From: Pseudomonadota bacterium
GTDB taxonomy: Bacteria > Desulfobacterota > Desulfovibrionia > Desulfovibrionales > Desulfovibrionaceae
DNA: 64,000 bases
NCBI GenBank assembly: GCA_018816865.1
Contig: JAHIUW010000038.1
Coordinates: 62,001-126,000, forward strand
Direction of reading: 5' to 3'
Shown here: one piece after another, positions 28,328 through 40,844 of the stretch
Numbering within the stretch: position 1 is the first letter of the stretch
How the letters are laid out: every line of letters starts with the position of its first letter
Position numbers and translations under genes: made by a program
Notes under the pieces: generated by a model
Told to the model about the DNA's origin: nothing
The model's input: the letters and a program-made list of their open reading frames with translations, nothing else
Databases searched by the model: none

Positions 28328-28453
28328 ATGCTTAACGTAAACCTATCCACCACGCAGGCCGCCTCGGCCATCAACAGCGGGAGCTCCTCCTGGCTGTTTT
28401 TTTGGTTTTGGTATTTTATGCCGGCCTGTGGTCAGGGTAAGAATCGCTTGTAG
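28328..28453 (+). CDS. Aromatic operon leader peptide (attenuator peptide)
   Basis: A 41-codon frame: MLNVNLSTTQ..., then SSSWLFFWFWYFMPACGQGKNRL and TAG. Codons 22-30 (28391-28417) read W-L-F-F-W-F-W-Y-F: three Trp, four Phe and one Tyr within nine residues. A rho-independent terminator follows 25 bp after the stop. The arrangement is that of E. coli trpL/pheL leaders, but with all three aromatic amino acids combined, which fits an operon supplying all three. The frame is too short for automatic callers. No strong ribosome site is visible. The next real gene (ADH synthase) starts at 28580. Confidence 0.85.
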   Translation: MLNVNLSTTQAASAINSGSSSWLFFWFWYFMPACGQGKNRL

Positions 28454-28513
28454 CAACAACAGATAATCGATTCCACCAGGGCCGCGGGCAGATAATGCTC
28501 GCGGCCCTTTTTT
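28423..28513 (+). promoter_or_regulatory. Transcription attenuator of the aromatic operon
   Basis: Terminator: GGGCCGCG (28479-28486) pairs with CGCGGCCC (28500-28507), extended inward by GGCA/TGCT, and is followed by TTTTTTATT. Antiterminator: GAATCG (28441-28446) pairs with CGATTC (28468-28473), with GGT/ACC and GGCC/GGCC continuing the helix; this sequesters the left arm of the terminator. A ribosome stalled at the aromatic codons leaves 28435-28446 free (antitermination), whereas one that reaches the stop codon at 28453 covers it (termination). Confidence 0.85.
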
Positions 28514-28579
28514 ATTACTGGTCGCGCGCAGGCCGCTCAGGGTTCCGGTGGGCTAGCAGCAACCCAGGAGAGAAAAATC

Positions 28580-33296: not shown

Positions 33297-34061
33297 ATGA
33301 ACATTGAGAACATCCTTATCATCGGCGCGCAGGGCCAAATGGGCCGTCTGTTCGCGCGGCGCAGTCAGGACGCGGGATTGACCGTGCGTGGCCTGGATCG
33401 ACCGCTGACGGCCGAGGCCGTGGCCCAGGGCGCGCGCGGGGCCCAGATGGTGCTGCTGGCCGTGCCCGCGGCGGCCATGGCCGATGTCTCGGGGATGTGC
33501 GCGGAGGCCATGGGGCCGCAACAGATTCTGGTCGATCTCTGCTCGGTCAAGACCGCCCCTCTGGATGACATGCTGGCGGCCCATCCCGGGCCGGTGGTGG
33601 GTACGCATCCCCTGTTCGGGCCCAACCCCGATCCCGGGGACGTGCGTGTGGCCATGGTGCCGGGGCGCGACGACGCGGCCTTTGAAGCCGTCTGCGCCTA
33701 TATGCGACGCCTGGGGTTTGCGCCGTTCACCACCAACGTCGATGAGCATGATCTGGCCATGGCCTCCATCCAGGGCCTGAATTTCGTGACTACGGTCTCC
33801 TATCTGGCAACCCTGGCCAACCGGCCCGAGTTCGAGCGCTTCATCACCCCCAGCTTCAATCGCCGCCTGGAGGCGGCGCGCAAGATGTTGACCGAGGACA
33901 GCGAGCTGTTCGCGAGCCTTGTGGAGATCAATCCCTACACCCAGGAAGCCGTGCGCAACTTCCGTTCCCTGCTGAACATCGCCGCCGGGGGCGACATTGA
34001 GCTGCTCTCTGCGCGCGCCAATTGGTGGTGGCGAAACGGGCAAAGTGGGGGAGGGGTGTAA
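33297..34061 (+). CDS. tyrA: Prephenate dehydrogenase; C-terminal codons double as a possible Trp leader
   Basis: Predicted 254 residues. The Rossmann opening IENILIIGAQGQMGRLFARR and PVVGTHPLFGPNP, then the conserved LAMASIQGLNFV and helical C-terminal dimerisation region mark prephenate dehydrogenase, which gives 4-hydroxyphenylpyruvate. No chorismate mutase or ACT domain is fused. The C-terminus reads ARANWWWRNGQSGGGV: three consecutive Trp codons (residues 243-245, 34023-34031). A terminator hairpin lies 30-66 bp after the stop, in front of trpE. The upstream spacer (33264-33296) is AT-rich with a poor ribosome site. Confidence 0.92.
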   Translation: MNIENILIIGAQGQMGRLFARRSQDAGLTVRGLDRPLTAEAVAQGARGAQMVLLAVPAAAMADVSGMCAEAMGPQQILVDLCSVKTAPLDDMLAAHPGPVVGTHPLFGPNPDPGDVRVAMVPGRDDAAFEAVCAYMRRLGFAPFTTNVDEHDLAMASIQGLNFVTTVSYLATLANRPEFERFITPSFNRRLEAARKMLTEDSELFASLVEINPYTQEAVRNFRSLLNIAAGGDIELLSARANWWWRNGQSGGGV

Positions 34062-34127
34062 CCGGCAACAGCCGGAGCAGATGAAACAACGCCGCGCCTC
34101 CCCATAGGGACGCGCGGTTTATTTTTT
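34047..34127 (+). promoter_or_regulatory. Possible second attenuator before trpE, using the tyrA C-terminus as leader
   Basis: Terminator: CCGCGC (34092-34097) pairs with GCGCGG (34112-34117) and, after one mismatch, TCCC with GGGA; TTTATTTTTT follows. Antiterminator option: GGGGAGG (34048-34054, inside the last tyrA codons) is complementary to CCTCCCC (34097-34103), the left terminator arm. The three Trp codons of tyrA (34023-34031) lie about 16 nt upstream of that segment. A ribosome stalled there leaves it free; a ribosome at the TAA (34059-34061) covers it. A small CCGGC/GCCGG hairpin (34062-34075) lies between. Confidence 0.6.
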
Positions 34128-34158
34128 GAAAATTAACCAAATAGTTGAGGAGGAGATC

Positions 34159-35574
34159 ATGGAACCGATCCGGCTGCAGCAATACGGACAATGGCTGCCT
34201 GCAGACATCCAGACCCCCATCAGCCTGTTCCTGGGCCTGGTGGGACACAAGCAGGGCATCCTGCTGGAGAGCGCCGAGGTGGACGGCCGCTTCGGTCGCT
34301 ATTCCATCATCGCCTGGAACTACGCCCTGCGCCTGTCCTGCAAGGACGGCAGGCTGGACGTCGGCGTACGCGATGAACGCCTGGAAGGCTTTAGGGAATT
34401 CAAGGGTCTGCCCTACATGGACGGCCTGCGCCAGGTCATGGCCAACCTGAGCATCGAACCCGCCGAGGGCTTCGAGGACCTGCCGCCCATCACCCGCGGG
34501 CTGGCCGGGTATTTCGGCTATGGCGTGGCCGGGATGTTCGAGCCCAAGCTGGCGGCACAGCTGCACCCCGAGGATGCCGAGGCCTGCCTCGTGCTGCCCG
34601 GCAACGTGGCGATGTTCGATCATCTGTATCACCGGCTGTGCTTTTTGACCCTGACCAAGGGCGTCAAGCCGCAGTCGGACCAGAAGGCCGTGATGCGCGC
34701 GCCTGCCCCGCCGGATATCGGCGAGCACAAGGTCAACCCCGGCGAGGCCGCCTACAAGAAGAGCGTCTCCGACGCCATCGAGCTGATCCGCCAGGGCGAG
34801 TGCATCCAGACCGTGCTCTCCACGCGCTTCTCGGCCCCCTTCGAGGGCGACTCCTTCGTGCTCTACCGCCGCCTGCGGCAGATCAATCCCTCGCCCTACA
34901 TGTTCTACATGCGTCTGCCCAAGCTGGAACTGTTCGGTTCTTCGCCGGAGATGATGGTTCGTTGCCGGGACGGCGAGCTGACCACCTGCCCCATCGCGGG
35001 CACGCGGGTGCGCGGCGAGACCGCGGCCGAGGACGAGCGCCTGGCCCAGGAACTGCTGGCCGATCCCAAGGAGTGCGCCGAGCACGTGATGCTCGTGGAT
35101 CTGGGACGCAACGACCTGGGGCGGTTGTCCGAACCCGGCAGCGTCAAGGTCGATAAGTTCATGCAGGTGGAGCGGTTCTCCCACGTGATGCACATGACCT
35201 CCTACGTCAGCGGCAAGCTGCGCAAGGACCTGGATGCCCTGGACGTGCTGGGCGCGACCTTCCCGGCGGGCACGGTCTCGGGCGCGCCCAAGGTGCGGGC
35301 CATGGAGATCATCGCCGACCTGGAACGCCAGCCACGAGGACCCTATGCCGGGGCCATCGGCTGGCTCGGTCTGGACAAGGGCCGCGTGGACCTGGACACG
35401 GGCATCACCATCCGCAGCATGTGGGTGCGCGACAACGTCCTGTCCTGGCAGGCAGGCGCGGGGATTGTCTTCGATTCGGACCCCGCCAAGGAATGGGCCG
35501 AGTGCAACAGCAAGGCCCGGGTGATCCGCGAGACACTGGCCGGAAAGGGAGGCTGCGATGTTCTTACTGATTGA
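34159..35574 (+). CDS. trpE: Anthranilate synthase component I
   Basis: A 471-residue protein that makes anthranilate from chorismate with TrpG-supplied ammonia. The tryptophan feedback motif LLES (residues 35-38) is intact. The catalytic domain shows the conserved IQTVLSTRF, PSPYMFYMRL, GSSPEMMVR, TCPIAGTRVRGET, ELLADPKECAEHVMLVDLGRNDLGR and PAGTVSGAPKVRAMEII blocks. The ATG at 34159 has GAGGAGGAG upstream; a TTG 11 codons before lacks this. It overlaps trpG by 17 bp, so translation is coupled. Confidence 0.97.
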   Translation: MEPIRLQQYGQWLPADIQTPISLFLGLVGHKQGILLESAEVDGRFGRYSIIAWNYALRLSCKDGRLDVGVRDERLEGFREFKGLPYMDGLRQVMANLSIEPAEGFEDLPPITRGLAGYFGYGVAGMFEPKLAAQLHPEDAEACLVLPGNVAMFDHLYHRLCFLTLTKGVKPQSDQKAVMRAPAPPDIGEHKVNPGEAAYKKSVSDAIELIRQGECIQTVLSTRFSAPFEGDSFVLYRRLRQINPSPYMFYMRLPKLELFGSSPEMMVRCRDGELTTCPIAGTRVRGETAAEDERLAQELLADPKECAEHVMLVDLGRNDLGRLSEPGSVKVDKFMQVERFSHVMHMTSYVSGKLRKDLDALDVLGATFPAGTVSGAPKVRAMEIIADLERQPRGPYAGAIGWLGLDKGRVDLDTGITIRSMWVRDNVLSWQAGAGIVFDSDPAKEWAECNSKARVIRETLAGKGGCDVLTD

Positions 35575-36139
35575 TAACTACGATTCCTTCACCTTCAATC
35601 TGGTGCAGGCCTTCCAGCTCCTGGGCCGTGACCCCGTGGTCCTGAAGAACGACGATCCCCGGGTCCTGGAACTGGCCACCAGCGGCGAGCTGACCATGGT
35701 CTGCCTGTCTCCCGGCCCCAGCCGCCCGGAGAACGCGGGCCTGTGCCTGAAGTTCCTGGAACTCCTGCCGCACGCGGTGCCCGTGCTGGGCGTCTGCCTG
35801 GGGCATCAGACCTTGGGGCATTTCGCAGGGGCCGAGGTAGTCCAGGCCGAACTGATCATGCACGGCAAGACCTCCATGATCAGCCACGACGGCCAGGGTC
35901 TGTTCGCGGACATGCCCAACCCCGTGTCCATCGGCCGCTATCATTCCCTGCTGGTGGACGTGGACAACGCCCCCGAGGACGTGCGCCGGCTGTTGACCGT
36001 CACGGCCCGCACCGCTGCCGGGGAGGTCATGGCCATGAAATACAACGACCGCCCCTGGGTGGGCGTGCAGTTCCATCCGGAGTCCGTGTTGACCCCTGAG
36101 GGCTTGAAGCTGTTGGCCCGATTCCCCGAAGGACTCTAG
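35558..36139 (+). CDS. trpG: Anthranilate synthase component II (glutamine amidotransferase)
   Basis: A 193-residue class I amidotransferase subunit. IDNYDSFTFNLVQ begins the fold; the catalytic triad is Cys in LGVCLGHQ and His and Glu in QFHPESVLTP; the SPGPSRPENAG oxyanion loop is present. No fusion to TrpD. Overlaps trpE; trpD begins about 60 bp later, after a short spacer that is open in frame but poorly conserved. Confidence 0.96.
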   Translation: MFLLIDNYDSFTFNLVQAFQLLGRDPVVLKNDDPRVLELATSGELTMVCLSPGPSRPENAGLCLKFLELLPHAVPVLGVCLGHQTLGHFAGAEVVQAELIMHGKTSMISHDGQGLFADMPNPVSIGRYHSLLVDVDNAPEDVRRLLTVTARTAAGEVMAMKYNDRPWVGVQFHPESVLTPEGLKLLARFPEGL

Positions 36140-36198
36140 TCATGGCCGGTCCAAGACGAGTTCTGTTCAACAGCATGCAACGCAAAGGAGCGATGAAG

Positions 36199-37200
36199 AT
36201 GGCGATACAGATGGCTGACGTACTGGAACAGCTGGCCTTCCATAAGGACCTGCCCCCGGACATGGCGGAACAGAGTTTTGCCCGGTTGATGGATGGCACC
36301 ATGACCCCGGCCCAGGCCGGGTCCTTCCTGATGGGCCTGAAGACCAAGGGCGAGACCGCCGAGGAACTCGCCGCCGCGGTCAACGCGGCCCTGTCCCATG
36401 CGCGCATGGTGCCGGGTCTTTCCGGCAAGCGCATCGACACCTGCGGCACCGGCGGCGACGGGTCCAGCAGTTTCAACTGCTCCACGGCCGTGGCCCTGAC
36501 CCTGGCGGGCATGGGCTATCAGGTGGTCAAGCACGGTAACCGCTCGGTCTCCAGCACCTGCGGCAGCGCCGATGCTTTGGAGGCTCTGGGCCTGAACCTG
36601 AACATTGAACCGGGCGACGTGGCCGCGGAACTGGCCCGGCGCAACTTCGTGTTCCTGTTCGCTCCGGGCTACCATCCGGCCTTCAAGCACATCATGCCCG
36701 TGCGCCAGGAGATCGGCTGCCGGACCTTGTTCAACCTGTTGGGGCCGCTGCTCAATCCAGCGCGGCCCACGCACCAGATCCTGGGCATCGCCATCCCGGG
36801 ATTTTTGCATCGCATGGCCAAGGTCCTGGCCATGACCGGGGTGCAGAAGGCCTGCGTGGTGCACGGGGCTGGCGGGTTCGACGAGCTGACGCCCTTTGGT
36901 GTAAACCAGGTCGTGTATGTGCGCGATGGCTGGCTGCGTGAGGACATCCTTGATCCTGCGGCGTTGGGCATGGCCCCCAGTTCTCCCGAGGACATGGCCG
37001 TGAAGGACAAGGACGAGGCCGTGGCCGTGTTGCGCGAGATCCTGGGGGGAGGAGGTTCCAGGCCCATGCGTGACATGGTGGCCCTGAATCTGGGCATGTG
37101 CCTGCACCTGCTGGAGGACGAGCTGTCCCTGGCCGACGCCGTGGACAAGGCGCGCGAGGGCCTGGCCTCCGGCGCCGGGGAGAAGGTTTTCCATGCTTAG
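36199..37200 (+). CDS. trpD: Anthranilate phosphoribosyltransferase
   Basis: A 333-residue enzyme that transfers phosphoribose from PRPP to anthranilate. DTCGTGGDGSSSFNCST is the PRPP-binding glycine loop; KHGNRSVSSTCGSADALEALG and FNLLGPLLNPARP follow as usual. The ATG at 36199 has AAAGGAG at 8-bp spacing and gives the normal family start; a 19-residue longer frame from 36142 would abut trpG and is less likely. The last 8 bp overlap trpC. Confidence 0.96.
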   Translation: MAIQMADVLEQLAFHKDLPPDMAEQSFARLMDGTMTPAQAGSFLMGLKTKGETAEELAAAVNAALSHARMVPGLSGKRIDTCGTGGDGSSSFNCSTAVALTLAGMGYQVVKHGNRSVSSTCGSADALEALGLNLNIEPGDVAAELARRNFVFLFAPGYHPAFKHIMPVRQEIGCRTLFNLLGPLLNPARPTHQILGIAIPGFLHRMAKVLAMTGVQKACVVHGAGGFDELTPFGVNQVVYVRDGWLREDILDPAALGMAPSSPEDMAVKDKDEAVAVLREILGGGGSRPMRDMVALNLGMCLHLLEDELSLADAVDKAREGLASGAGEKVFHA

Positions 37201-37966
37201 AAAATTCGCCGATGCCAAACGCTCGGAGGTCATGGAGCTATTGGGCTTGGACGCACGGGGCGAGATGCCTGCGCCCTGGACCGGCCTGCGGCCTTCCTTT
37301 TCCGGGGCGCTCCGGGCCAAGGGGCCGGGCGCGGTGATCGCCGAGTACAAGCGGGCCTCGCCCAGCAAGGGCGTCATCAACCTCACCCTGACGGCCGCGG
37401 ATGTGGCCCGGGGGTACGCCGCCGGCGGGGCGGCCTGCATCTCCGTGCTGACCGAGGTGGACCACTTCCAGGGCGAGTTGGCCTATCTGGATCAGGCCTT
37501 GCCCGCGGGGTTGCCGCTGCTGCGCAAGGACTTCATCCTGCACCCGTTGCAGGTGGCGCGCACCGCCGCCACCCCGGCTTCGGCCGTGCTGCTCATCGCG
37601 CGCATGGTGGAAACGGTTGAGTTGTCCGAACTGCTCAACCTGTGCGATCACTATGACCTGGAGGCGGTGACCGAGGTCTTCGACGCCGAGGACCTGGCCC
37701 GCGCCCGCGAGGCCGGGGCCAGGATCATCCAGGTCAATAATCGCGACCTGGACAGCCTGACCATCAGTCTCGATGTCTCGCGCGGGCTGATCGGGGCCAG
37801 GACGCCCGATGAACTCTGGATCAGCGCCAGCGGCATCAACCACGGCGCGCAGATCAGGGAACTGGCCTCCCTGGGCTTTGACGCCGTGCTTATCGGCACC
37901 TTCCTGATGGAGGGCGGGGACCCCGAAGGGGCCCTGAAACGCTTGATCAAGGAAACAGACGCATGA
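37193..37966 (+). CDS. trpC: Indole-3-glycerol phosphate synthase
   Basis: A 257-residue TIM barrel that decarboxylates and cyclises CdRP. VIAEYKRASPSKGVI contains the catalytic lysine region, ISVLTEVDHFQGEL and PLLRKDFILHPLQV follow, with a phosphate-binding loop near ISASGINHGAQI. Not fused to TrpF. Overlaps trpD at the start and trpF (ATGA) at the end. The enzyme ends with the expected glycine/aspartate-rich helix and is complete. Confidence 0.96.
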   Translation: MLRKFADAKRSEVMELLGLDARGEMPAPWTGLRPSFSGALRAKGPGAVIAEYKRASPSKGVINLTLTAADVARGYAAGGAACISVLTEVDHFQGELAYLDQALPAGLPLLRKDFILHPLQVARTAATPASAVLLIARMVETVELSELLNLCDHYDLEAVTEVFDAEDLARAREAGARIIQVNNRDLDSLTISLDVSRGLIGARTPDELWISASGINHGAQIRELASLGFDAVLIGTFLMEGGDPEGALKRLIKETDA

Positions 37967-38604
37967 CCGACAAACGACAGCTCATCAAGATCTGCGGCAT
38001 CACCCGCCAGCAGGACGCCGACGTCTGCCTGGCCGCGGGTGTGGACATGACCGGATTCATCTTTCACGAATCCAGTCCCCGCAACATCCAGCCCGGTGCC
38101 GCGGCCGCCATCGAGACCGGCACGGCCCTGCGGGTGGGCGTGTTCGTACGCCAGGAACAGCAGCAGGTGCTGGAGATCATGCGCCGCGCCAAGCTCGATC
38201 TGGCCCAGCTGTGCGGCGACCAGGACCGGGCCTTTTGCCGGGCCGTGGGCGCTGCGCGCGTGATCCGCGTGTTCTGGCCCGAGCGCTACAAGATGCGCGC
38301 CGCCCTGGAGGATGAGTTGTCGGATTATGAGCAGAGCATGAGCTATGTCCTGCTTGATGCCGGGCTGTCCGGCGGCGGCCATGGCCGCACCCAGGACTTC
38401 GGGCTGCTCACGGGCCTGGATTCGCCTGTGCCCTGGCTGTTGGCCGGGGGACTGGGCGTGGATAATCTGGCCCGGGCCATGGGCCAGTGCACTCCCTCGG
38501 GCTTCGATCTGAACTCGGGCCTGGAGTCCGCACCCGGAGTGAAGGATGCTGAACTTGTGCGGCGGGCCGTGGCCTTGATCCGCAACGCTGGCAACGAACA
38601 GTAA
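37963..38604 (+). CDS. trpF: Phosphoribosylanthranilate isomerase
   Basis: A 213-residue TIM barrel. IKICGITRQQDA carries the catalytic Cys, GFIFHESSPRNI the family Pro-Arg turn, QLCGDQ the second motif, and LLDAGLSGGGHGRTQDFGLL the catalytic Asp and phosphate loop; FDLNSGLESAPGVKD closes the fold. The start overlaps trpC as ATGA. A small hairpin, aggccg/cggcct (38613-38630), occupies the spacer before the trpB ribosome site. Confidence 0.95.
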   Translation: MTDKRQLIKICGITRQQDADVCLAAGVDMTGFIFHESSPRNIQPGAAAAIETGTALRVGVFVRQEQQQVLEIMRRAKLDLAQLCGDQDRAFCRAVGAARVIRVFWPERYKMRAALEDELSDYEQSMSYVLLDAGLSGGGHGRTQDFGLLTGLDSPVPWLLAGGLGVDNLARAMGQCTPSGFDLNSGLESAPGVKDAELVRRAVALIRNAGNEQ

Positions 38605-38640
38605 ACACCACAAGGCCGTGCACGCGGCCTGGAGGATAGA

Positions 38641-39807
38641 ATGAAGAAAGGGTATTTTGGAGATTTCGGCGGGCGGTTCTCGCCCGAGTTGCTCATGCCG
38701 CCCCTGTTGGAGGTCGAACAGGCCTACAACACCATCTGCAAGAGTGAGCCTTTCCTCAAGGAATTCGGACGCATCCTGTCCGAGTACGTGGGCCGCTCCA
38801 CGCCGTTGACCTTCTGCCCCAACCTGTCCCAGGAACTGGGTTTCAACCTGTACCTGAAGCGCGAGGACCTGGCGCACACCGGCGCGCACAAGATAAACAA
38901 CACCATCGGCCAGGCCCTGCTGGCCAAGCACATGGGCAAGAAGGTGCTGCTGGCCGAGACCGGCGCGGGCCAACACGGCGTGGCTACGGCCACGGCTGCG
39001 GCCTACATGAACCTGGGCTGCATCATCTACATGGGGGCCACCGACGTGGAGCGCCAGTCCCACAACGTGCGCCGCATGAAGCTGCTGGGGGCCGAGGTCC
39101 GGCCCGTGGAGTCCGGCACCAAGACCTTGAAGGACGCCATCAACGCGGCCTTCAGGTACTGGATCGCCACGCAGGCCGACACCCACTACTGCTTCGGCAC
39201 CGCTGCCGGGCCGCATCCCTTCCCGGCACTGGTGCGCGACTTCCAGGCCGTCATCGGCTACGAGGCGCGTCAGCAGAGCGTGGAGCAGTTCGGCACCCTG
39301 CCTGACCTGCTCGTAGCTTGCGTGGGCGGCGGCTCCAACGCCATCGGCCTGTTCCATGCCTTCATGGAGGACCGCGAAGTGCGCATGGTGGGCGTGGAGG
39401 CCGCAGGCTCTGGCGAGCCGGGCTGCTATCACTCCATGGCCATCTGCAAAGGCACCCCGGGCGTGTTCCACGGTGCGCGCACCCAGTTGTTACAGACCGA
39501 GGACGGACAGATCGAACCCTCGCACTCCATCGCCCCAGGCTTGGACTATCCCGGCGTTGGTCCCGAACATGCCTGGTTGGATGCCTCGGGCCGCGCCGAA
39601 TACGTGAGCATTAACGACGCCCAGGCCCTGAACGCCCTCCAGACCCTGTGCCGTTCCGAGGGCATCATCCCGGCCCTGGAATCGTCCCATGCCGTGGCCT
39701 ATGTCCTGGAGCACCGCGCCGACATCACCCCCGGCTCCAATGTCATCGTTAACCTCTCGGGGCGCGGCGACAAGGATATGGGCATCATCGAAGAGTACCT
39801 GGGGTAA
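38641..39807 (+). CDS. trpB: Tryptophan synthase beta chain
   Basis: A 388-residue PLP enzyme that condenses indole and serine. GRFSPELLMPPLLEVEQAY, the PLP lysine in HTGAHKINN, AETGAGQHGVATATAAA, GGGSNAIGLF (phosphate loop) and the sodium-site region PGLDYPGVGPEHAWL identify TrpB1. The ATG has GGAGGATAGA upstream. R4 begins at the base after the stop codon and separates it from trpA, an unusual place since trpB and trpA are normally tightly coupled. Confidence 0.97.
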   Translation: MKKGYFGDFGGRFSPELLMPPLLEVEQAYNTICKSEPFLKEFGRILSEYVGRSTPLTFCPNLSQELGFNLYLKREDLAHTGAHKINNTIGQALLAKHMGKKVLLAETGAGQHGVATATAAAYMNLGCIIYMGATDVERQSHNVRRMKLLGAEVRPVESGTKTLKDAINAAFRYWIATQADTHYCFGTAAGPHPFPALVRDFQAVIGYEARQQSVEQFGTLPDLLVACVGGGSNAIGLFHAFMEDREVRMVGVEAAGSGEPGCYHSMAICKGTPGVFHGARTQLLQTEDGQIEPSHSIAPGLDYPGVGPEHAWLDASGRAEYVSINDAQALNALQTLCRSEGIIPALESSHAVAYVLEHRADITPGSNVIVNLSGRGDKDMGIIEEYLG

Positions 39808-39928
39808 GGCCGTCCATGGCGCACGGTCTGCTTCGTTGCCGCGGATTGTTCAGCCCCTCGTGTATGTTTGAATACACTTCGGGCCTGAACAATCCTTGCG
39901 CCTGGCATCCCGCACACCCTGAACGGCC
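39808..39928 (+). repeat. Nested palindromic element R4 (between trpB and trpA)
   Basis: Outer arms GGCCGTCCA (39808-39816) and TGAACGGCC (39920-39928), one mismatch; inner perfect 11-bp arms GGATTGTTCAG (39843-39853) and CTGAACAATCC (39885-39895); tip GTGTAT/ATACAC. Joints: TGCTTCGTTGCCGC, CCCCTCG...CTTCGGGC and TTGCGCCTGGCATCC. Like R3 it lies inside the operon and starts at a stop codon. About 150 bp separate it from the trpA start. Confidence 0.85.
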
Positions 39929-40082
39929 TCCCCGGGCCGGAAATGTGGCGGGAAGAGAGCAGCCTCTCAAGACACAAGGGAAGAGGGACCGTCCGCCGGA
40001 TGGACCGGGGCGCACCGAGGAGTGGGACGGATAAGAATTGAATGCATTGCACTGCGGCCAACGCCGCAGAGGAGAAGATAGA

Positions 40083-40844
40083 ATGTCGAATCTGAGCGAG
40101 AAGATACGAGCGGCCAACGCCAAGGGCCGCAAGGCCGTGATCCCCTATGTGCCCGCAGGGTTTCCGGGGCTGGATGAATTCTGGGCCGTGATCAAGGAAC
40201 TGGACGCGGCGGGTGCGGACATCATCGAGATCGGCGTGCCGTTCTCCGACCCCGTGGCCGACGGTCCCACCGTGGAACAGGCCTGCCTGGAGAGCCTGGA
40301 ACGCGGCGTGACCCTGAAGTGGATTCTCACTGAACTGCCCAAGCACCGCGCCGGGATCAAGGCCGGGATCGTGCTCATGGGCTACCTCAATCCGTTCCTG
40401 CAATACGGGCTGGAAAAGCTGGCCCGTGACGCCGGGGCCGCGGGCGTGGGTGGATTGATCATCCCCGACGTGCCCTTTGAGGAAGCGCAGGAGATGAAGA
40501 AGCTGCTCGGTACCCGGGGCGTGGACCTGATCTATCTGGTGGGTCTGAACACCCCGCCCGAGCGTCTGAAGATGTACGCCTCCAATGCCGGGGGCTTCGT
40601 GTATCTGGTGTCCGTGATGGGCATCACTGGCGCGCGCAGCACCCTGCCCCGTGAGATCGGCGATAAGATCAAGGAGGTCAAGGCGGCCTTTGACGTGCCC
40701 CTGGCTCTGGGCTTCGGTATCAAGACCCCGGACCAGCTGGCGGCTTTCGGCGACGGCCTGGACGCGGCTGTTATCGGCTCCGCGCTGATCGACCATATCC
40801 GCGCTGGCGGAACGGCTACCGAGTTTATCTCACCCTGGGTTTAG
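40083..40844 (+). CDS. trpA: Tryptophan synthase alpha chain
   Basis: A 253-residue TIM barrel that releases indole from indole-3-glycerol phosphate. VIPYVPAGFPG, the catalytic Glu in IEIGVPFSDPVADGPTVEQA, LMGYLNPFLQYG, the catalytic Asp in IIPDVPFEEA and GITGARSTLP are the family signatures. The ATG at 40083 has GAGGAGAAGATAG upstream; a 15-codon upstream extension is not conserved-looking. Last gene of the 13-gene operon; R5 starts in its stop codon. Confidence 0.95.
   Translation: MSNLSEKIRAANAKGRKAVIPYVPAGFPGLDEFWAVIKELDAAGADIIEIGVPFSDPVADGPTVEQACLESLERGVTLKWILTELPKHRAGIKAGIVLMGYLNPFLQYGLEKLARDAGAAGVGGLIIPDVPFEEAQEMKKLLGTRGVDLIYLVGLNTPPERLKMYASNAGGFVYLVSVMGITGARSTLPREIGDKIKEVKAAFDVPLALGFGIKTPDQLAAFGDGLDAAVIGSALIDHIRAGGTATEFISPWV

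Follow-up and report, generated by a model that had tools for sequence, protein, structure and literature searches.

A predicted tryptophan-specific attenuator at the tyrA-trpE junction of Desulfovibrionales in which the end of tyrA takes the place of a leader peptide

Background

The window analysed here is a stretch of 64,000 nucleotides in which an aro-trp operon passes from tyrA to trpE, and it raises the question of whether the closing codons of an enzyme gene can serve as the sensor of an attenuator. An earlier note on this DNA had proposed so, pointing to three consecutive Trp codons near the tyrA end, a GGGGAGG sequence 16 nt later and a terminator arm complementary to it before trpE. 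Each of these elements was found in its place (Table 1). Taken together with the related junctions described below, they make it very probable that this junction is a ribosome-mediated, Trp-specific transcription attenuator inside the operon, with the C-terminal codons of tyrA replacing the very short, dedicated leader peptide that usually has this task.

Table 1 Features of the aro-trp operon in the window
Feature	Position	Strand	Basis
First-tier leader peptide (...SSWLFFWFWYFMPACGQGKNRL, then stop), head of aro-trp operon	28329..28454, within a base or two	+	
First-tier attenuator terminator	28478..28514	+	
tyrA, prephenate dehydrogenase, 254 aa	33297..34061	+	ORF call; NCBIfam matches; order-wide homologues
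Putative sensing leader, last 12 codons of tyrA	within 33297..34061	+	
Three Trp codons (TGG), W243-W245, putative sensor	34023..34031	+	In frame with tyrA
Region 2, antiterminator 5' strand, G-rich, inside tyrA frame	34047..34055	+	Comparison; assumed ribosome footprint
Small hairpin CCGGC-AACA-GCCGG in the spacer from region 2 to region 3	34062..34075	+	Folding
Intrinsic terminator hairpin and U-tract (region 3:4)	34091..34127	+	Folding; conserved in 67 junctions
CCTCCCC, core of region 3; 3' strand of the antiterminator, within the terminator left arm	34097..34103	+	
trpE Shine-Dalgarno sequence GAGGAGGAG	34147-34155	+	
trpE, first controlled gene	34159..35574	+	
ORFs in the order of trpG, trpD, trpC, trpF, trpB, trpA	35558..40844	+	Assigned by order and sequence

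The operon and its first-tier leader

Upstream of trpE the operon consists of an ADH-synthase (aroA')-type gene (28580), an ORF in the aroB' position, pheA, aroA and tyrA. The NCBIfam prephenate dehydrogenase matches to tyrA were all below the curated cut-off, and the close TyrA relatives with named records were all from the Desulfovibrionales, the order of sulfate-reducing bacteria to which the source of the window is assigned on this basis.

An aromatic-rich leader was present upstream of the ADH-synthase gene at 29 of 30 loci, the remaining locus (L247) having only 116 nt upstream. Its common form, ...FYFWYFYF...ACG..G, usually has seven to ten aromatic residues of which one is Trp, and across relatives the Trp count ranged from 1 to 3 with Phe and Tyr dominant. 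The ACG-containing tail that follows the aromatic codons is conserved and probably encodes the first-tier antiterminator strand. This Phe/Tyr-rich leader would gate all the aromatic genes and read mainly Phe and Tyr, and a second switch at tyrA-trpE would read Trp only and gate the trp genes only. The independence of the two that the earlier note had proposed is incomplete as regards specificity, as the first leader of the window itself includes three Trp codons (WLFFWFWYF).

The tyrA-trpE junction

TyrA in the window ends in ANWWWRNGQSGGGV, with the tail residues A-N-W-W-W-R-N-G-Q-S-G-G-G-V, and the G-rich stretch is formed by the closing codons GGG GGA GGG GTG before the TAA stop (34059-34061). 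GGGGAGG at 34048-34054 begins 17 nt past the last Trp base, that is with 16 nt between. The left arm of the terminator lies about 36 nt 3' of these codons and trpE starts about 31 nt past the U-tract. The stem-loop reads GCCGCGC-C-TCCC-CATA-GGGA-C-GCGCGGT (34091-34118), followed by TTATTTTTT, and the isolated hairpin was calculated at -20.7 kcal/mol (z -4.0). When the region downstream of the Trp codons was left free the minimum-energy fold was the antiterminator (-33.1), while RNA from 34045 on folded into the terminator form (-32.1).

At the window locus alone the antiterminator duplex had a z of -1.4 and a shuffle p of 0.095, and complementarity at a single locus would be weak evidence for a switch. 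The significance of the pairing comes from the 67 junctions in 24 genera in which the matched sequences have changed independently, as described in the next section. The small spacer hairpin was present in the sister species L002, absent from more distant relatives and is probably passive.

A simple terminator scan of the window missed the junction hairpin, probably because of its internal mismatch. No relevant Rfam match was obtained for the junction down to an E value of 1, where control by a T-box, TRAP or a riboswitch would be expected to give one, and a sigma-70 promoter scan near trpE found none inside the junction. The short MKQRRASP ORF at about 34081 was considered as a leader and rejected, as it has no Trp codon and is not conserved.

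Comparison across the Desulfovibrionales

Of the 247 Desulfovibrionales genomes, 230 had an identifiable TyrA, and the 3' junctions of tyrA were read for 110 loci from the genome search together with 80 named ones. A terminator before trpE combined with an antiterminator strand was found in 67 of the 110, representing 24 genera and six families and including three terminators with weak U-tracts that were added by hand. The stems of these terminators ranged from -14 to -36 kcal/mol. At least three Trp codons were present in 65 of the 67, so that the Trp run, antiterminator and terminator co-occur in related genomes as would be expected if the earlier proposal were correct.

The antiterminator and left-arm sequences differed widely while remaining matched to each other, as in the pairs GGGGAGG/CCTCCCC (window), GGGACGCGGC/GCCGCGTCCC (genus g2), GGGGTGCGGCT/GGCCGCACCCC (g7), GCGGGGCG/CGCCCCGC (g8), GAGGGAGCGCG/CGCGCTCCCTC (g29) and TGGGAGGATG/CATCCTCCCA (g43). 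In a permutation test with one representative per genus, true pairings averaged about -22 kcal/mol compared with -17 to -18 when permuted across genera (z about -7.5), and none of 5000 cross-genus permutations was as good as the true pairings, whichever of 20 sets of representatives was used. Of the 45-nt windows elsewhere in tyrA, only 1% paired equally well with the terminator arm.

The length of the Trp run tended to follow the hairpin. A run of at least three was present in most members of all 24 attenuator-bearing genera compared with 6 of 14 others (Fisher p 6e-5, phylogeny ignored), and on the TyrA tree nearly all informative pairs changed in the expected direction, the independent changes being too few to reach significance.

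Several junctions had features of their own. A conserved ORF of about 25 codons was located between the tyrA terminator and trpE in Pseudodesulfovibrio-type junctions (L059, L060, L062, L169, L187) and also in G093, G107 and G109. It reads MxxT-[TGA]-KxxENRKK(I/V)KGW(E/Q)VIPRPYH, and every copy read has TGA in frame as its fifth codon, with many synonymous differences on both sides of the TGA. The ORF may encode a very small selenoprotein or act as a second trpE leader gated by UGA. TyrA of L043 and L181 (Candidatus Desulfovibrio kirbyi) continues past WWW into an apparent antisense tRNA (...REGGVEPPCRIGAGS), giving a tRNA-derived C-terminus. The Nitratidesulfovibrio type (L140, L143, L146, L065, L066) has a tyrA-trpE gap of more than 260 nt with an open frame starting MEMPEMP, which is perhaps a trpE extension or a small gene.

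Geometry relative to the ribosome

The antiterminator began 11-24 nt (median 17) past the last Trp base in all 67 junctions, with the start of region 2 within 12-20 nt of the Trp codons in 94% compared with 18% in shuffles. Its position was tied to the Trp run (SD 2.2 nt) rather than to the stop codon (SD 8.3 nt), relative to which it ranged from -26 to +11. Humidesulfovibrio-type junctions (g2) and some of the Pseudodesulfovibrio type (part of g7) have an early tyrA stop soon after WWWR, and region 2 there lies in or behind the stop (TAG-GGACGCGGC / GCCGCGTCCC) at an unchanged distance from Trp.

We assumed a standard ribosome footprint of 13 nt ahead of the A site and about 15 nt behind. With this footprint a ribosome at the last Trp codon left region 2 exposed in 67 of 67 junctions, and one at the stop codon masked half of it or more in 65, which agrees with the geometry suggested in the earlier note, whereby a stall at Trp frees the antiterminator and completion of tyrA covers it. 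Once the left arm alone had emerged, the antiterminator formed in all 67, before the right arm. The finished terminator was usually the more stable of the two structures (median 5.4 kcal/mol), and therefore the choice between them must be kinetic. No signal was found for a 1:2 protector (pause) hairpin between region 2 and the upstream 45 nt (mean z +0.1). It is therefore likely that the switch is on by default and is turned off by the terminating ribosome.

The terminator stem ended at a median of 41 nt before trpE, which leaves little room for a separate promoter. Several junctions have gaps of more than 200 nt, where another promoter is possible.

The Trp run in the TyrA protein

Among 43 TyrA proteins W244 was invariant and W245 nearly so, also where the hairpin was missing, and the Trp usually missing in hairpin-less lineages was W243. 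In the AlphaFold2 model of TyrA (mean pLDDT 94.7) residues 243-249 form a C-terminal helix, predicted with moderate confidence (residues 241-250 had a mean pLDDT of about 79). Retention of W244 and W245 without the hairpin indicates a role for these two residues in the protein too, and the Trp run probably serves both TyrA and the RNA switch. At 19 loci outside the Desulfovibrionales the tail Trp was absent.

According to the earlier note, Trp codons conserved without the hairpin would count against the attenuator. Such conservation was observed in part, both for W244-W245 and as a full WWW in six genera (g3, g10, g11, g18, g33 and g36), and is attributed to the dual role of the run in protein and RNA; the evidence from the RNA stands. 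In g3 and a few other genera the WWW without a hairpin could also be inertia.

Junctions without the hairpin and leaders detached from tyrA

Junctions in which tyrA overlaps trpE or almost reaches it (g4, g6, g10, g32, g33, g34) had no hairpin, and their run was mostly WW. In G052, a member of the Desulfomicrobium group with no detectable trpE, the hairpin and the third Trp were both missing.

In twelve genomes trpE lies apart from tyrA, ten of g3 (Desulfovibrio) plus g11 (Bilophila) and g17. The names given here to g3 and g11 were assigned through matching contigs. Wherever trpE lies apart a short free leader preceded it, and the tyrA of these genomes was without such a switch. In 11 of the 12 the leader tail was (W)WWR...G(G/D).V(R/Q).A-like, and the distance to region 2 was 15-17 nt. 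In Desulfovibrio and Bilophila the tail pattern is WWWR...GG.VR.A followed by a stop, examples from g3 and g11 being MHVFLTTFLADSFNGWWWRINMRGGDVRA or MLNAFSLTFSAYRWWWRVVDVKGGVRPA, each ending at a stop, with the antiterminator strand 15-17 nt past Trp and then the terminator. The Bilophila leader tail RVVDVKGGVRPA found its best match in the Nitratidesulfovibrio-type TyrA tail RSHTERGGVRPS.

The module goes with trpE, and its detached form resembles an ordinary trp leader attenuator. The chances seem about even that a trp leader peptide joined the enzyme as its tail at the base of the Desulfovibrionales, was partly co-opted by the protein (W244-W245) and was set free again in Desulfovibrio and Bilophila as the trp operon changed its place. 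If so, there has been two-way traffic between the C-terminus of a structural gene and a regulatory leader peptide. The free trpE leaders that resemble detached TyrA tails (L252-L262) offer a rare natural experiment on the birth of a leader peptide.

Proposed mechanism and alternative explanations

From the anatomy of the junction, its conservation, the matched sequence changes and the geometry we infer the following course of stalling, termination and response to Trp, in a model that assumes coupling of transcription and translation in these bacteria. RNA polymerase passing tyrA would encounter the intrinsic terminator before trpE. With ample charged tRNA-Trp, the ribosome would move through WWW to the tyrA stop and cover region 2, the terminator would form and the trp genes would be off. 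When Trp-tRNA is scarce the ribosome would stall on WWW with region 2 exposed just ahead. Region 2 would then pair with the left arm as this emerges, allowing read-through into trpEGDCFBA. As no 1:2 hairpin was detected, occlusion by the ribosome is itself likely to be the off-signal.

A plain intergenic terminator that lowers trp expression constitutively, with WWW kept for the protein and the G-rich codons a coincidence, would agree with the conservation of W244 and W245 where there is no hairpin and with the predicted C-terminal helix. It leaves unexplained why region 2 and the left arm covary as a matched pair in 24 genera, why the distance from Trp to region 2 is fixed and why the same module reappears as a free leader before a relocated trpE, and is considered quite unlikely. 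The layout of a structural gene end, terminator and target gene is also that of the UTP- or coupling-type attenuation of E. coli rph-pyrE, where a close ribosome blocks the terminator and no amino acid is sensed. For such a mechanism the conserved exclusive antiterminator and the Trp run at a fixed distance would be superfluous, and a ribosome near the tyrA stop is placed to favour termination rather than block it, which makes this explanation highly improbable.

The true sensor might instead be a separate short leader ORF, reached by internal initiation in tyrA or given by the MKQRRASP ORF that overlaps the terminator. An ATG at about 34081 is preceded by GGAGCAG, and in 41 of the 67 relatives an ATG lies in frame no more than 30 codons before the Trp run. 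In the window none of the 30 codons that precede WWW is ATG, and a sensor of this kind is scarcely credible.

The proposed attenuator has the key features of the trp type apart from two. A Trp codon run lies in a translated upstream ORF and a terminator precedes the first controlled gene, while an exclusive antiterminator that would be free at the stall and masked on completion is indicated by the sequence, the covariation and the assumed footprint. The 1:2 protector hairpin and a dedicated short leader ORF were absent from the window, the latter being present with its own start at the separately placed trpE of g3 and g11. A protector hairpin is a feature of the E. coli trp attenuator and is not required in all attenuators.

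The module is conserved across the order and would show how two gates can act in series within one operon, one for the aromatic genes in general and one for Trp only. It would also tie the evolution of a protein C-terminus to RNA regulation, with a single Trp run that may be of use in both folding and sensing. A sensor in the tail of an enzyme would escape the usual searches for attenuators, which target short leader ORFs ahead of operons. The laboratory model D. vulgaris Hildenborough belongs to Nitratidesulfovibrio. The module was present in the members of this genus examined (L140, L146) and in L065 and L066 of the same type, and thus looks testable there.

Comparison with known systems

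An attenuator has been predicted for the whole aroA'-aroB'-pheA-aroF-tyrA-trp supraoperon of D. vulgaris in a table of attenuators ahead of operons, with none at tyrA-trpE (Bonner et al. 2005, PMC1173090, Table 7). It concerns the same operon in a relative, differs in being listed at the level of the operon rather than for the tyrA-trpE junction, and is probably the counterpart of the first-tier leader at about 28329-28514. Neither trp nor tryptophan is mentioned by Rodionov 2004 (PMC545781).

The earlier note knew of no described case. For an enzyme whose C-terminal codons sense an amino acid this held in the open-access papers searched, where no description was found. It did not hold for the use of a structural gene end as a leader, for which E. 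coli rph-pyrE is a precedent and was the sole relevant case in the same papers. The two junctions share this feature. In E. coli rph-pyrE it is UTP that is sensed, by way of coupling, and not an amino acid through codons, and no antiterminator of the tyrA-trpE kind is known there. The end of the upstream structural gene there is the translated leader of an intergenic attenuator, according to the passage of PMC6941894 that cites Bonekamp et al. 1984.

With the trp attenuator of E. coli (trpL) the junction has in common tandem Trp codons, mutually exclusive antiterminator and terminator structures, and a predicted decision by ribosome position with predicted control from trpE onwards. In place of a 14-aa leader, the end of a 254-aa enzyme is the putative sensor, and the junction also differs in its location within the operon and in having no 1:2 protector. 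The free trp leaders of Desulfovibrio and Bilophila share WWWR, region 2 and the terminator with the tyrA-tail module, to which they are probably homologous, and differ from it in having their own start and in lying off tyrA.
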